From Dissophora ornata (lineage: Eukaryota; Mortierellomycota; Mortierellomycetes; Mortierellales; Mortierellaceae), in the NCBI GenBank assembly GCA_025201705.1, contig MU616685.1, positions 1-56,167 of the forward strand: 56,167 nucleotides of DNA, given 5' to 3'. Below the pieces are notes generated by a model, which ran no database searches, was not told where the DNA came from, and saw nothing but the letters and a program-made list of their open reading frames with translations. How positions within the stretch are numbered: position 1 is the stretch's first letter; each line of letters starts with the position of its first letter. A program made the position numbers and the translations under genes. Positions 29,985 through 50,202 of the stretch are shown one piece after another.

Positions 29985-30578
29985 TTAGCCCACCAGGCTT
30001 GTAAAATTGTGGGGCACAAGGAACCATTCACCGCCTCTTTGCAAAGATGCGCATATCCCGTTGTTCCCAAACGTGGCGTTCCTGATCCAGATCTCATCAA
30101 ACTGCGCTGGCGAAGGAAGCTGCGATTCATCGGGCGCAAATAGAGCGACACGCTTTTTGGTTTTAGTCCCAAAGTCCATGATGATGAGGCCTCAAACGAA
30201 GGCTGAACAACATCCATTTTAGTCAGTTTTCATCCTCATTTGGTACAAACAAGGACATAATATGAGTAGGTACTTCACACTTTTGCATATGTGTGCACCT
30301 TCATGTTGATTGAGGTTGGGAACGGTCCAATGGAAGCGACTTACAACGGTGCCGTTGACGTTAAGGTTGACGAGAATCATGTCCGGGTTTAATGAGGCCA
30401 ATGGAGTGAACTGCAAACATGAAAAAAGGCAATAGGACAGGGTTGATGTTTGGCCATGTTACTCTTGACAGTATTTCACAGTTTGCGCACTCATTCATAC
30501 TTGAATTCTTTCCTCCAGCTTGGAAAGCGCACTTGGGACGCGAATGTTTGAAGTAGTGAAAGCGTTTCCAAGAGTCAT
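29985..30578 (-). CDS. POT1-OB1-like single-domain protein, copy A
   Basis: 131 residues, three exons on minus: 30578-30501, 30410-30299 and 30190-29985. Exon 2 (112 nt) begins FTPLASL and carries VNLNVNGTVV; exon 3 carries LIIMDFGT, KKRVALFAPDESQLP, IWIRNATFGNNG and GGEWFLVP. The order FTPL, Gly-Val strand, Asp strand, LF strand, LP, hydrophobic strand and final Trp strand matches the Telo_bind OB fold of POT1. Unlike its paralogues on the plus strand it has no intron after the NAT triplet. The second intron uses weaker sites (GTGCAC donor, TTTGAG acceptor). The only array member on this strand; single-stranded DNA binding is inferred. Confidence 0.6.
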
Positions 30579-31419
30579 GATTGAAGTTCTAGATATGAAA
30601 GATACCACAACGGTGTTTGCAAAGGATGAGTAGTGAAGATAGACATTAGAGTGGTTTGTTTTGTTTTTGAATTTGCTTCGCACGACGACTCATTGTTTTC
30701 CTTTTCGTGTTGCCACTTGTGACTCTCTTGACTATTTCTCCTTATTACCCTTTTTCTAGTGATGCGTTGCTGCTAGGGTATGGTGTCGCATTGAGATTGA
30801 GAAAGGCGGATAGTGGACCAGGCTTATCGAAACTATTTTCGCGTCGTCAGAGTATAATCATGCTTGATACAATAAACCACACGTTTCTGTAAAGTCAAAT
30901 CCTAATGAGCGAATGTTGTCTTGTGCCAAGTAAAAGAATTGACCGTGTAAGTTAAAAGGACGTTAATGGTGGCGGCATTTATAGTCCCTTCGATCAAGGA
31001 TGCGACGCTTGGTTGATAATGCGGAAGCTGGATCATTTAAAACGCTTCACTCTTATAATAATGAATCTATGAATTAATCGCAATAAACGTCTGTAACGAG
31101 GATGGCGTTTCGTTGAAAGCCTTCTTCAAAACCCCGCGTCGTTGGCCATGTCCGAGGGTACACCGCCGTCGGAAATTAAATTCTATCATCGTGACCAACT
31201 GAGGCAGCCCCTTTGACTCTCCATGCATCTTCGCGAAAGGCCAGTCTGCATTCGATCAAACGTTTGTGAACACGAAGGCTTTGCAACCGAAAGCGCATCC
31301 CATTTCTCCTTGAAAATTCAACACGTTAAATATGTGCAGACTGCCTTCGTGATTTCTTTCACGCATTCCCTCTCTGCAACATTTTGTTCTTGATATACTT
31401 CAATCCAGCATACACAAAC
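30579..31419. other. Intergenic between copies A and B
   Basis: Divergent 5' regions of OB-fold copies A (-) and B (+). I looked for a further copy here and found no supported exon. Confidence 0.45.
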
Positions 31420-32088
31420 ATGTCCTTTAATGACCGAGTGTTTAAGACATATGAAGTACCCTCCATGGATGTTTTTGGTGTATGGTACAAAGCATGAAAT
31501 GCCTTTGAAAAAAAAGCACTCCTAAAGCACGATTAAGAGCTCAAGATGAAAGAACTGACGAGTAATATGTATACATTGCTTCCTGTCTCTGATGTATGAA
31601 AAGCCGTCGTCCTTGAAGTACATTTCATTGTCAGTCTTGGACCAGGGAAAGAGCCTCGACAACATTAGTGTCCGCGGTATCGTCTCTCAAATAACTACCG
31701 CTCCATATCGCGTACCTCAGGAGGAGGAAGGTAAATACAAAGCATCATTTGATATTAGAAAAGCCGGTGTGGATTCCGCATGGATTTTACTCACAATTAA
31801 TTTCCAAGTGTACCTGGCCAGCTACGATATCTACAATAAAAGTGGAGCGGAAAAAAGAGTCTTTCTGATGGCACCAAGAATCGAATTATTGCCGAAATGG
31901 CACCTCGGCTATGGCGTGGCGATCACAAACGCAACGGTAACGCAACGCGCGCATTCAGCAGGCCCTTTTGTTTTGGAAATTCTTCCAGATATTCATCTAA
32001 ATTTGAACCCTTCGTATAGTATGATTGCGATCAAGACGTCATTACTGCGTTCCACATAAAAGGCGCTAGGTGGGGGCTCATGGAATAG
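31420..32088 (+). CDS. POT1-OB1-like single-domain protein, copy B
   Basis: 122 residues from four exons: 31420-31479, 31619-31730, 31809-31936 and 32020-32088; intron phases 0, 1, 0. Exon 2 starts YISLSVLDQGKSLDNISVRG (equivalent of FTPL...GxSVxNVxVxG), exon 3 holds VYLASYDIYN, KRVFLMAPRIELLP and GYGVAITNAT, exon 4 starts YDCDQD and ends in the closing Trp strand (ARWGLME). Internal exon lengths 112, 128 and 69 nt are identical to copy E. The unspliced frame stays open across introns 2 and 3, which makes naive gene finding prone to error here. Function inferred as single-stranded nucleic-acid binding through one OB fold. Confidence 0.65.
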
Positions 32089-32164
32089 TCACCGAATAGC
32101 AAAGTCCCTGAGGACCACTACTTGCATTTAGCGCTCTAGTTTCCCTTGGCACAACAAATAAACC

Positions 32165-32810
32165 ATGTGCGTTGAGCTCTTGTACGTGATATGCAAATTG
32201 CCTTCATAGTTTCCTCGCTTGTTATATTCCATATTCCAGATCACTACTTTGTCGTCTTTGCAGTTCACACCGCTGTCGTCCCTACCAGCAGGCAATAGCA
32301 TCCGAAATATCAATGTCCGCGGTGTCATATCTGAACAAGTCTCTGCCCTAAGCCGTGTGCTTCATTTGGAAGGTAAAAAAAACAAAAAAAATAAAGAGAA
32401 GGCTTGTGTTTTTACGCAATGCCAATGTCAGCTTATCATTCCTATTCTTTTTTTGCAGCCTGGTCGACGAGTTTCATCATTTTAGATGCGAATCAAGCGG
32501 AGAAGTTAGTCGTCCTGGTTGCGCCGAAGCGTGAGTTACTGCCAAAGTTGCAGGTTGGAGATGATATTGTTATCAGAAACGCAATGGTAAGGGTGAGAGG
32601 CCGTACACCTAATGCTCCCATAAACTACCTGAAAACGTTCGGATATGACCTTTCTCAGAATTTAACCTTTCTTATTATCGTTATCCATCGCGAAAAAAAA
32701 ATGCAAAAATCCAGTACAGTAGCTCCAAAGACTTCATTGGGGCTTCCGCAGATCAAAGTGCCACTTGGGAAGTCAAGCATTCAAATACAGCAGAATCCCT
32801 TCGCAGATAA
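32165..32810 (+). CDS. POT1-OB1-like single-domain protein, copy C
   Basis: 117 residues in my model: exons 32165-32185, 32264-32372, 32459-32586 and 32715-32810, phases 0, 1, 0. Exon 2 reads FTPLSSLPAGNSIRNINVRG, exon 3 FIILDANQAEKLVVLVAPKR then GDDIVIRNAM (128 nt, as in B and E), exon 4 YSSSKDFIGASADQSATWEV and a short tail. It starts only about 75 bp after the stop of copy B. The first exon is the weak point: seven codons with a GTGATA donor, much shorter than in A, B or E, so the true start may differ. Confidence 0.55.
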
Positions 32811-33400
32811 AAGGCTTCAATGGCAACCGGGTGGAATGCTTCCGAAATAAACATGTCCGTGTCTTCTTTCTGTTTGTTCACACATGAATTGTTAAGATAT
32901 TGTTTTATATTTTGTTCCGCTGTATATTTCTCGCTCTTTTCTTTCCAACTTCCCAAAACACTCCACTCAATCACTTGAAAACATGTACTCCTCAAAGAAT
33001 TAATCTTCCAACAACAGTGCATCAAATGAGCAAACTACGGAGATCGACACTGCGCGCTACATAGGTTTGCCTTCTATTGACCATATCTTCGATCTTAGTG
33101 CTCTCGCGAATTTAACTAAAGCTTCCAACGCGCTGAACACGCCCTTCCCTGGCGACACGAAGTCGCGCTCCGTCTACAAGCTATTAGACCTAAACTTGAG
33201 CGCTTCCAACACCCAACGGCCAAAGGCTTCAAGCATGCCTTCCTCTAATATCTCGATTTCGAAGGTCCCAGACGCACCACTGGATCATGCCAAGTATGAT
33301 GCTGAATTGTGTGTGTGTGGTGGCGATCATTAAAGACCTTGAAGGAGTTTGGATCGAGTGTTTTTAACTATAGTGTCTGGTATCATTCTTGAAGCTGTAG
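32811..33400. other. Region between copies C and D
   Basis: Includes an open stretch at 33061-33333 without a good start; an ATG at 33235 (MPSSNISISKVPDAP) may be the first exon of copy D, but no donor gives the phase 0 that the paralogues use. Confidence 0.35.
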
Positions 33401-33934
33401 TTTACTCCATTGGCAAACAAGGTACCGAGCACCGCCAAGGTGAGTGTGCGTGGCACCGTTTCACACGCAGCCCGCGCGACATATCGAGCACATGGGCTGA
33501 AGAAAGGTAAAATGCGATAATGGACCAGAAGTAACGCGTATATTGCATGGACTTGCCACGCTATGATCTTTATTTTTATTTTATTTTTCTACATCTTGTC
33601 AAGTGCACATGTCCTGTTTTGACATTAAAGATCCGGAAACCGATGTCATAAAACTGGCCGCTTTGATGACTTCGCAACGCAATACGCTACTGGATTATTT
33701 GAGTGTGTCACCCTCGGAGGTGCCAAGGTGATCAGTTTTTTCATTCATTCATAGTTGTAAATACATCGCTCAATGTCTGCCTTCTGTCTTTTCACGAACA
33801 AACAGTATTCAACCCCGGATAGTGAAGGCGCCATAATCTTTTGCTTCCGCTTTCGATGGTGCAACTTGGACAATCGTACCCTAGTAGATCCCTGCTGCAA
33901 CTTTGTCAAGACTTTCATCCTCCTCGCTTTATAG
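33401..33934 (+). pseudogene. POT1-OB1-like copy D, degenerate
   Basis: Exons recognisable by comparison with B, C and E: exon 2 at 33401-33506 (FTPLANKVPSTAKVSVRGTV, ends phase 1), exon 3 from 33604 to about 33719 (VHMSCFDIKDPETD, KLAALMTSQRNTLL) and exon 4 at 33806-33934 (YSTPDSEGA ... RWCN). The segment that in the others carries Gly-Asp and the hydrophobic NAT strand is replaced by an unrelated LSVSPSE, the exon 3 donor is weak (GTGCCA), and no matching first exon was found. Probably a decaying copy, though an altered functional gene is possible. Confidence 0.45.
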
Positions 33935-34179
33935 TTTCGTAGAGTGTGCGCAGTTGCTGCAATAGCCTGTTCGTAATAACAAATAATAAATTCGCTCCAG
34001 CGAAAGATGTGGTTTCCACATTAATTGCTCCTTTGGCTGAACAGGGACAAAATCACATTTGCGGTTGCGAGAAGAAATAAAAGGGTGATACGCGTAGAAT
34101 ATCGTCTTTGCTCCACTTCAACTCACTCGCCTACACACACACACACGCCCCACTGTTTCCAACCTTTACCGCTTGCAAC

Positions 34180-34832
34180 ATGCCCCATAGAAATAATCTG
34201 ACCTCCAGAGCCTCAAACGCACGCTCTGGTCCTGTAGAAATACAGGTATTGAGGCAACCGAGAATTCCATCGAGGGGAAAAAACATCGGAAGAAAAATCC
34301 ATTGTAATGCTAACAACAAACGACTCGAACCTTTGCATCAATTCTCCTGTCCTACAGTTCACTCCATTGTTAAACTTCCGCGTCGGCCAGAGTGTCAAGA
34401 ATGTCAACGTCTGCGGCACGGTCTCTGAAGTCGTCTCTTACCCAGTTCTTTCGTCTCCGGTGCAGAATGGTAAAAAAAAAAAGAAGGGAAAAAGAAAAGG
34501 TGGACCGCTGGCGACTGTACATCGGTGTCCCTGTGCTAACTGTTTGTTTGAAGTATTCATGGCCTGTTATTACCTTGAGGATGTGTACGGGGATGAAAAG
34601 GTGGTCTCTCTATTCGCGTCAAAGCATAGATCTCTGCCAAATTGGGGAGAGGGCGATCAAGTTACCATCACAAATGCAACTGTAAGGCCAAAGCGACGTA
34701 GGTGTTACTGCCCACGATTTTTTATATTAGCTAATATCCACACGTTAATGTCTACACACATAGTACAAAGGTGGCAGCGACGAAATTTGTGCTTCTGAGG
34801 ACAGAGGCAGTAGCTGGAAGCTCCTGTCGTAA
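34180..34832 (+). CDS. POT1-OB1-like single-domain protein, copy E
   Basis: The clearest member: 124 residues, exons 34180-34245, 34358-34469, 34554-34681 and 34764-34832, all GT-AG with phases 0, 1, 0. The domain reads FTPLLNFRVGQSVKNVNVCG, FMACYYLEDVYGDEKVVSLF, LPNWGEGDQVTITNAT, then YKGGSDEICASEDRGSSWKL. Laid against the first OB fold of POT1, the shared points are the [FY]TPL start, the L..G..V.NV.V.G.V strand, the second-strand Asp, LF, LP, GD.V, the Tyr after the last intron and the closing G-S-x strand. No signal peptide, membrane segment or second domain. Likely a small soluble, possibly nuclear, single-stranded nucleic-acid binder (inference). Confidence 0.7.
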
Positions 34833-35198
34833 ACCACAAAATCCACCTCCTGAAATCTTTTGTCGTTGCTTTGATTGAATCGGCTGCGTTCACTGTAAAA
34901 AGAGGCATCCCATGACTTTATTGCAATGCAGAAAGAACACACGTCCGTTATCGACTACTCTCTTTCCGAAATAAAACCAAATCGCACTTCAGCCAGACTG
35001 ATAGAAGATTGTTCAGTCAAAGACTTCCCTATTTGATGGCTTTTGTGCTCAAGAAAGCCTAAGTCTGACCAACAACAAGAGGAAAAACACAGGATAAAAT
35101 ACGTCCATCATTAAACTTGGAGCATTTAAAAGGACCCTTTCATTTTATTTTGTGCTATCCGCGCGCTCCAACTTGCGACACATTTCCATTCAACGACA
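34833..35198. other. Intergenic between copies E and F
   Basis: No coding signal found. Confidence 0.45.
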
Positions 35199-35769
35199 AT
35201 GACAAACCCATCAAACATCTTCACCATTTCAGGCATTGTTTTCTAGGCAGGCTTCCTAGACAGCTCGTGCCAACAATTTCCGTACCGGCCATTACACGAC
35301 TTGATCTAAGGAGAACGTGCTAACCACATCTGTGTTTATGGTAGAGTGCATACTCAATCTGAACCCAGTCATCTGTTACAATGGGATCACAGAAGAAACT
35401 TTCATGATGGAGTCTTTCATCGTTGATTTGAATGTAGGAGCGCCGCAGAAAGCGGTTCTTTTCATGGACGATCATATGCTCTCTCCGATGACTGGTCCAC
35501 TCGACATGATTCCCATTAGAGATGCAAGCTTTATGAACGTCCCGGGTTTGTGCGAAAGGATTTGCGTATCTCATGGCACAGGTCAACCTGGGCCCATTTG
35601 GAATACGGGTTCACAAACCTGGCCTGATAAAAACGACCACACGAGAGAATCTCTTGCAGAGTTAGTCATTTCTCTTCGCGGTGGCACCTTCAATAGCAAC
35701 TTATTGCCACAGAAGCGGTTCTATGCTGTCAAAATAAATCTAATGGGGTTTATTTCTTTGACTCTCTGA
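35199..35769 (+). CDS. Divergent POT1-OB1-like copy F, unresolved model
   Basis: An ATG at 35199 opens a short first-exon-like frame (MTNPSNIFTISGIVF, similar to the first exon of copy A). From 35338 an unbroken frame encodes 143 residues; its middle (ESFIVDLNVGAPQKAVLFMD, then MIPIRDASFMNVPGLCERIC, then GQPGPIWN) follows the second half of the OB domain in the other copies without introns, then extends by about 55 residues ending in LISLTL-like sequence. The first OB strands (FTPL...G) could not be placed between the two parts. Either a rearranged gene with a new C-terminus or a decaying copy. Confidence 0.4.
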
Positions 35770-46779: not shown

Positions 46780-47799
46780 TGTGAGTATGTATTCGGGTTA
46801 TAGGGGAATTAGGATGGGGAATGGCAGAGAGAGGATTGAGATGATTCAAGAGCAGATTCGGCAGTGAAGAGTGATCTCTTTTAAAAACGAAAAGAGCATG
46901 TCGGTTACACGAGGGTTCAAGGTGCAGTTCCCCGCGTTTGTCACTCCCTTCCGAGAAGTGTCACTTTCGCGGCTCACTCGACACTCTTTGCTTCTCGAAG
47001 CGGCCAGTGTGAATCCTCGCGCTGTCACATCGATGCAGCTGGGCGTCATACTCGCCCTGTCCCCATCGAAGCGAGCATCTACCTACGCGACAGCCATACG
47101 TGATCTTGTTGCTATTGCTCCTTGCTTCTCACGAACCAACCACCTGACATGTAGACACCCGGACAGAGCAGAAATCCATCTGGATAGTTCTATACACTTG
47201 ATACAGGATCTGTTGATGCCATTCGCTCGGCACAAGGAATTGTTGTCACTTTTTCGCAGAGTAGGCACACACCTTGACCACTCCTCGATCCCCATCATTC
47301 ATTCACCGCGCTCATCGAAGCTTAAGCTTTGAAAGATTAACGTTAACACACCTTTCCACTTTCTCCACAAGTAGATGGCGAGAGCTTGTTGTTCTAGGCA
47401 GGCGCGAGTAGACGGATCAACGGATGCCCTGTAAACAAGCTGACGGATTCACAATAGATCATATCGTAGGCGCACAAGGCATCCAAGGCCAGAACGCGTA
47501 AACAAAAACCACGTAGCGCGCTTTCTGTGCTACTGAAAGATTTGCGCATTCGTCTCCATTGATACCAAGACAAGTCCTTGACCTCTCAAATGACGGTAAA
47601 AGAAGCATTGATGAAATATGTATTTTTTTCCGCGGTTTGTTTAAGATGGGGTTGTATTTGATAATACTTGTATCAATTTATGAAAACGAAATCGTTGTTT
47701 GAACAAAAAAGAGTAGGGTTGAATCGTGTCGAACATGGCAGGGAGAGATTGAATTCTTTATAGAGATGATGGGAGGGTGGGCGGGAGTCTGTCGATAAT
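46780..47799. other. Intergenic between acyl-CoA oxidase and ATP2
   Basis: Roughly the first 500 bp are the acyl-CoA oxidase promoter; the rest is downstream of ATP2. An open plus frame at 46,871-47,332 has no family features. No RNA gene recognised. Confidence 0.5.

Positions 47800-50202
<2,403 letters not shown>

Follow-up and report, generated by a model that had tools for sequence, protein, structure and literature searches.

What is encoded by a cluster of short genes, each reading like the first OB fold (OB1) of the telomeric protein POT1, and what does the POT1 of the same genome look like? The question is raised by positions 29985-35769 of contig C124 (MU616685.1; 56,167 nucleotides, called the window here) in the genome of Dissophora ornata (31.4 Mb, 968 contigs), a soil fungus of the family Mortierellaceae. 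A preliminary description, made by eye, had read six related units there as stand-alone OB1-like mini-genes. We found that the array is real, that its members are supported as POT1-OB1-type domains, and that POT1 of Mortierellaceae appears to lack this very domain.

An array of single-domain genes

The gene models of the array were rebuilt by hand. It turned out that the six units lie where the preliminary description had placed them, from the stop codon of copy A at 29985 to that of copy F at 35769, but only A, B, C and E are intact, with one OB fold each, GT..AG introns and a reading frame that is open between ATG and stop, while D and F are degenerate (Table 1). The intact copies share an exon plan, with a short exon 1, an exon opening with FTPL (YISL in B) and an LP-turn exon, and their stop codon comes 4-13 residues past a Trp. 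In copy D, exons 1-3 match those of the siblings and are followed by an in-frame stop ahead of the closing-strand Trp motif. The 154 amino acid (aa) frame of copy F fits the later OB part and has an unrelated C-terminal tail; its TPL strand was looked for in the frame and not found. A DNA-level repeat scan of the array gave short and weak repeats only; divergence has thus gone too far for the copies to be recognised in the DNA itself.

Chance was tested with a profile made from copies G, H and I only, none of which lies in the window, run against the 1751 six-frame open reading frames (ORFs) of at least 20 aa in the window. The top 10 matches all fall inside 30012-35589. Three of them have E-values below 1e-5 (A, C and F) and 2 more are below 0.05 (E and a second part of A); the other five (B twice, E, C and D) are singly weak (E 0.07-1.5), and the best match beyond the array has E 3.3. 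Scores in 20 Markov shuffles peak at 9.1 bits, which 6 of the 10 array matches exceed (29.0 to 9.7 bits) and 4 do not. The array of related units is confirmed as real and beyond chance.

Table 1. Copies of the OB1-type family in D. ornata. Positions of A-F refer to the window; E-values are those of the G/H/I profile.
Copy	State	Position	Strand	Exons	Length (aa)	Intron phases	E-value	Remark
A	intact	29985..30578	minus	30578-30501, 30410-30299, 30190-29985	131	0,1	7.4e-8, 0.024	without third intron
B	intact	31420..32088	plus	31420-31455, 31619-31730, 31809-31936, 32020-32088	114	0,1,0	0.07, 0.21
C	intact	32165..32810	plus	32165-32185, 32264-32372, 32459-32586, 32715-32810	117	0,1,0	2.6e-7, 1.5
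D	degenerate	33235..33934	plus	33235-33312, 33401-33506, 33604-33727		0,1	1.5	weak profile match
E	intact	34180..34832	plus	34180-34245, 34358-34469, 34554-34681, 34764-34832	124	0,1,0	0.0032	high-confidence predicted OB fold
F	degenerate or strongly altered	35341..35769	plus	one open frame			9.4e-6	profile match at 35353-35589
G	intact	C895:3074-3746			191	0
H	intact	C392:22470-22932 (OB part)	minus		133	0,1
I	intact	C654:3596-4568			164	0,1,0

Fold and kinship to POT1 OB1

The AlphaFold models of copy H and of the window copy E are OB folds. For copy H, 13 of the 15 Foldseek matches against PDB at E<=1e-3 (places 1-13) fall on the first OB fold of human POT1 or of Oxytricha TEBP-alpha; for copy E, human POT1 OB1 takes the first place, aligned across human POT1 residues 6-115. 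The predicted OB barrel has POT1/TEBP-alpha OB1 as its nearest solved relatives, in agreement with what a structure comparison had been expected to give. Besides, when the family was aligned with human POT1 OB1 in hhalign, the probability was 81 and the score 37.1 over 73 columns, in register at [FY]TPL, the V.G strand and the LP turn. As controls, none of 200 column permutations scored above 17.0, the reversed profile reached 14.7, and eight Mortierellaceae POT1s, cut to their N-terminal 190 residues, did not exceed 18.4; human OB1 was preferred over OB2 in the profile-profile comparison. Since the human OB1 score lies above the permutations, the reversed profile and the Mortierellaceae N-termini, the copies are OB1-type domains and no copies of OB2. 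The homology first read by eye is largely borne out: predicted structures and profile alignments support the mini-genes as POT1-OB1-type OB-fold domains, with POT1/TEBP-alpha OB1 as nearest kin.

Several results weigh against this assignment. No Pfam model matches copies A, B, C, E, F or G at E<=10 (0 of 6); this includes PF02765, the POT1 OB1 model with which the preliminary description had proposed to compare them. PF02765 has 0 matches in the whole genome, which is uninformative, as 14 control genomes are likewise blank. When the family profile was run against PDB sequences, an unrelated SusD-like chain (E 0.059) came ahead of human POT1 (0.19, 0.21 and 0.36); the human matches are in the right register and archaeal RPA comes next (E 0.42). 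In VIA-align, the Z of POT1-type folds is only about 1 above that of other OB folds, with RPA and SSB close by. No match named TEN1 stands among the best 50 of each of two structure comparisons, which excludes nothing.

At the position of human Y36 the family alignment is aromatic in B, G, H and I, and at that of F62 in A, E and G; both residues we take to be DNA contacts of human POT1. The one own-genome match to human POT1 OB1 (C127:49303-49578, E 1.1) was judged spurious, its frame adjoining a long frame of another gene, presumably coproporphyrinogen oxidase.

POT1 of Mortierellaceae

The genome-wide search proposed in the preliminary description brought out both more copies and the true POT1, and, unforeseen there, a POT1 without OB1. 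The D. ornata POT1 gene was located by PF16686 at C11:110592-110807; once rebuilt, its first two exons score 5e-13. This gene carries the OB2 and OB3-like parts; the mini-genes are single-domain, and none of them joins OB1, OB2 and a C-terminal OB3/HJRL in one chain as a POT1 protein would.

Two protein searches gave a sample of 12 POT1 proteins (P0005-P0016, one from D. ornata); the genera checked, Mortierella, Modicella, Lunasporangiospora, Linnemannia, Podila and Dissophora, belong to Mortierellaceae. The second search, in which only the candidates with most shared words were scored, yielded three of the 12 and did not extend to other phyla. UniRef names three of the POT1 proteins "Protection of telomeres". 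PF16686 is above cut-off in 11 of 12, the exception being P0005, a D. ornata model that begins after OB2, while PF02765 is found in none (0 of 12). In ten proteins the motif that opens OB2 is found at residue 19-66; P0005 and P0012, the latter labelled partial, are truncated models. A profile of nine POT1s (A6) matched 4 PDB sequences at E<=0.1, all of them S. pombe Pot1 in its OB2 part (204-338 of 7cuh, and Pot1pC constructs), and gave no match in OB1. The 9 kb around D. ornata POT1, free of N, hold no family-like frame (best 4.0 bits). Since ten proteins begin at OB2 and the flanking DNA of D. ornata is blank, OB1 is missing from Mortierellaceae POT1, judged by annotation in the ten and by DNA in D. 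ornata. What this POT1 retains is OB2 and a zinc-ribbon-like OB3 region only. As far as sequences tell, OB1 is detached from POT1 in Mortierellaceae, which is new here; what is usually one protein seems to be divided over several genes.

Two 45-nt arms, 93% complementary and separated by 55 nt, form an inverted repeat at L017:5340-5484 on C11, in a POT1 intron that parts the OB2 exons from those of the linker. Deposited model P0005 begins just past this repeat and is so without OB2.

The wider Dissophora family

The array is a local cluster, as first described, but the family is wider: own-genome searches with copies E, G, H, C, I, A and F gave at least 3 further loci (G, H and I) on other contigs at E<=10, the match lists being lower bounds. 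Intron positions and phases of G, H and I are common to the array copies. Copy F as query matches itself and G (E 0.18) alone. Pairwise identity among the seven intact copies is 21-48%, and an unrooted FastTree tree groups G, H and I (0.93), joins A to them (0.87) and pairs B with C (0.87). Low identity, the tandem array and the two degenerate units together suggest birth-and-death evolution, and the OB1-type domains of Dissophora are, by their sequences, a fast-evolving gene family of their own.

A protein search for relatives gave 4 proteins, all from D. ornata, among 2815 candidates; relatives outside this species were not found in this search, which is shallow in that it needs shared 5-residue words. 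The deposited model of H is identical to our hand model, that of G differs by 1 residue, and the OB exons of I are common to both. H and G are also deposited under the locus-tag prefix BGZ58, apparently from a second D. ornata assembly. All four deposited proteins are named "hypothetical protein", and one of them, P0001 (327 aa), joins B (exons 2-3), part of C, part of D, and E, which is probably an annotation error. Such unnamed proteins and the merging of several array copies in one model hold a lesson for annotation.

Comparison with known systems

With POT1 OB1 (human POT1, S. pombe Pot1; PF02765) the Dissophora domains share the OB fold, the [FY]TPL lead-in, the V.G strand and the LP turn. 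Unlike POT1, the Dissophora genes have one domain (hand models of 114-191 aa), without OB2 or OB3, occur in multiple copies and fall below Pfam detection. Oxytricha TEBP-alpha is a single multi-OB protein, and identity to its first OB fold is about 15%.

Human and fission-yeast POT1 carry both OB folds, according to papers and PDB entries. According to PMC7617103, TTAGGG is held by OB1 of human POT1 and TTAG by OB2, and the C-strand 5' phosphate at the junction of double and single strand is likewise bound by OB1. The closest precedent is C. elegans, in which POT1 OB folds are spread over separate single-OB proteins; PMC3564990 describes one OB1-type protein (POT-1) and three OB2-type proteins, with a POT-1/POT-2 pair that may act together in a POT1-like way. 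As monomers, these single-OB homologues show tight binding to telomeric DNA (PMC9881156). OB2 is multi-copy in the nematode, whereas in Dissophora POT1 keeps OB2-OB3 and OB1 is multi-copy, partly in tandem. Dispersed POT1 OB folds are a known kind, and what is new is an OB1 both detached and multiplied. In the open-licence literature, nothing was found on Mortierella telomere POT1, POT1 OB1 as a separate gene, POT1 contact residues, or the OB folds of Arabidopsis POT1c/POT1a, and "Mortierell" is not mentioned in that on POT1/telomeres in Mucoromycota.

Proposed role and alternatives

By analogy with the single-OB proteins of C. elegans, the Dissophora mini-proteins may act as detached OB1 domains beside POT1. 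Most likely each would be a small, one-domain binder of single-stranded, G-rich telomeric DNA. In human and fission-yeast POT1 the OB1 contact is made from within a single chain; here the mini-proteins would provide it in trans, next to a POT1 of OB2-OB3. Local duplication, divergence and decay would shape the family; its core member, at a guess, is copy G, whose loop is the most POT1-like and whose tail is the longest. We infer expression, single-stranded DNA binding, telomere location and cooperation with POT1, and give an even chance to the view that these are stand-alone OB1-type genes whose products bind telomeric single-stranded DNA and serve POT1 in trans. A bolder version, a split telomere cap in which Mortierellaceae POT1 lost OB1 and a diversifying Dissophora family supplies swappable OB1 variants in trans to one POT1 (OB2-OB3) at chromosome ends, is put forward more tentatively, at somewhat less than even.

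The domains could be OB1-type by descent and yet act away from telomeres, for instance on single-stranded DNA of replication and repair or on foreign single-stranded DNA. The fast divergence, the several copies, found in one species only, and the loss of some of the presumed DNA-contact positions fit such a role, but the detached OB1 coincides with an OB1-less POT1, which suggests a split rather than a new function, and we consider it rather unlikely. We see still less reason to regard the array as a breeding ground of partial OB1 duplicates, derived from an ancestral copy and now decaying with little function left, and to place the working copy elsewhere (such as G). The stop before the last strand of D, the missing first strand of F and the low identities would agree with decay; A, B, C, E, G, H and I, however, keep an open frame across their 2-4 exons and agree in their splice phases, and H and G recur under BGZ58, identical and with one residue changed, respectively.

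That B to E form one multi-OB protein is quite improbable. P0001 is deposited as just such a prediction, but every intact copy begins with an ATG exon of its own and ends at a separate stop past the closing Trp, and P0001 omits the core exon of C and has a predicted local distance difference test score (pLDDT) below 50 at residues 106-218. Equally improbable in our view are generic RPA/SSB-like OB folds convergent on POT1 OB1: although RPA and SSB are near in Z and archaeal RPA is among the weak profile matches, POT1/TEBP-alpha occupy all the leading Foldseek places for H, and the hhalign match keeps its register through all three motifs.

Other observations

Rfam and tRNA scans of the window gave no matches, and the promoter/terminator scan relied on bacterial patterns and was of no use here. 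A 491-aa open frame at 47770-49245 of the window (plus) lies opposite a long minus frame at 47800-49461, which we take to read like mitochondrial ATP synthase beta; the former is probably a codon-usage shadow. Four telomere repeats in a row, TTAGGGTTAGGGTTAGGGTTAGGG, had 0 matches in the whole assembly, which is uninformative since the assembly is fragmented; the repeat is either missing from it or different.

Significance

An OB1-less POT1 together with separate, multi-copy OB1-type genes would be a natural test of whether both OB folds need to be in one chain. If true, POT1 OB folds would have become dispersed a second time, in Dissophora besides C. elegans, with the multiplied fold reversed.
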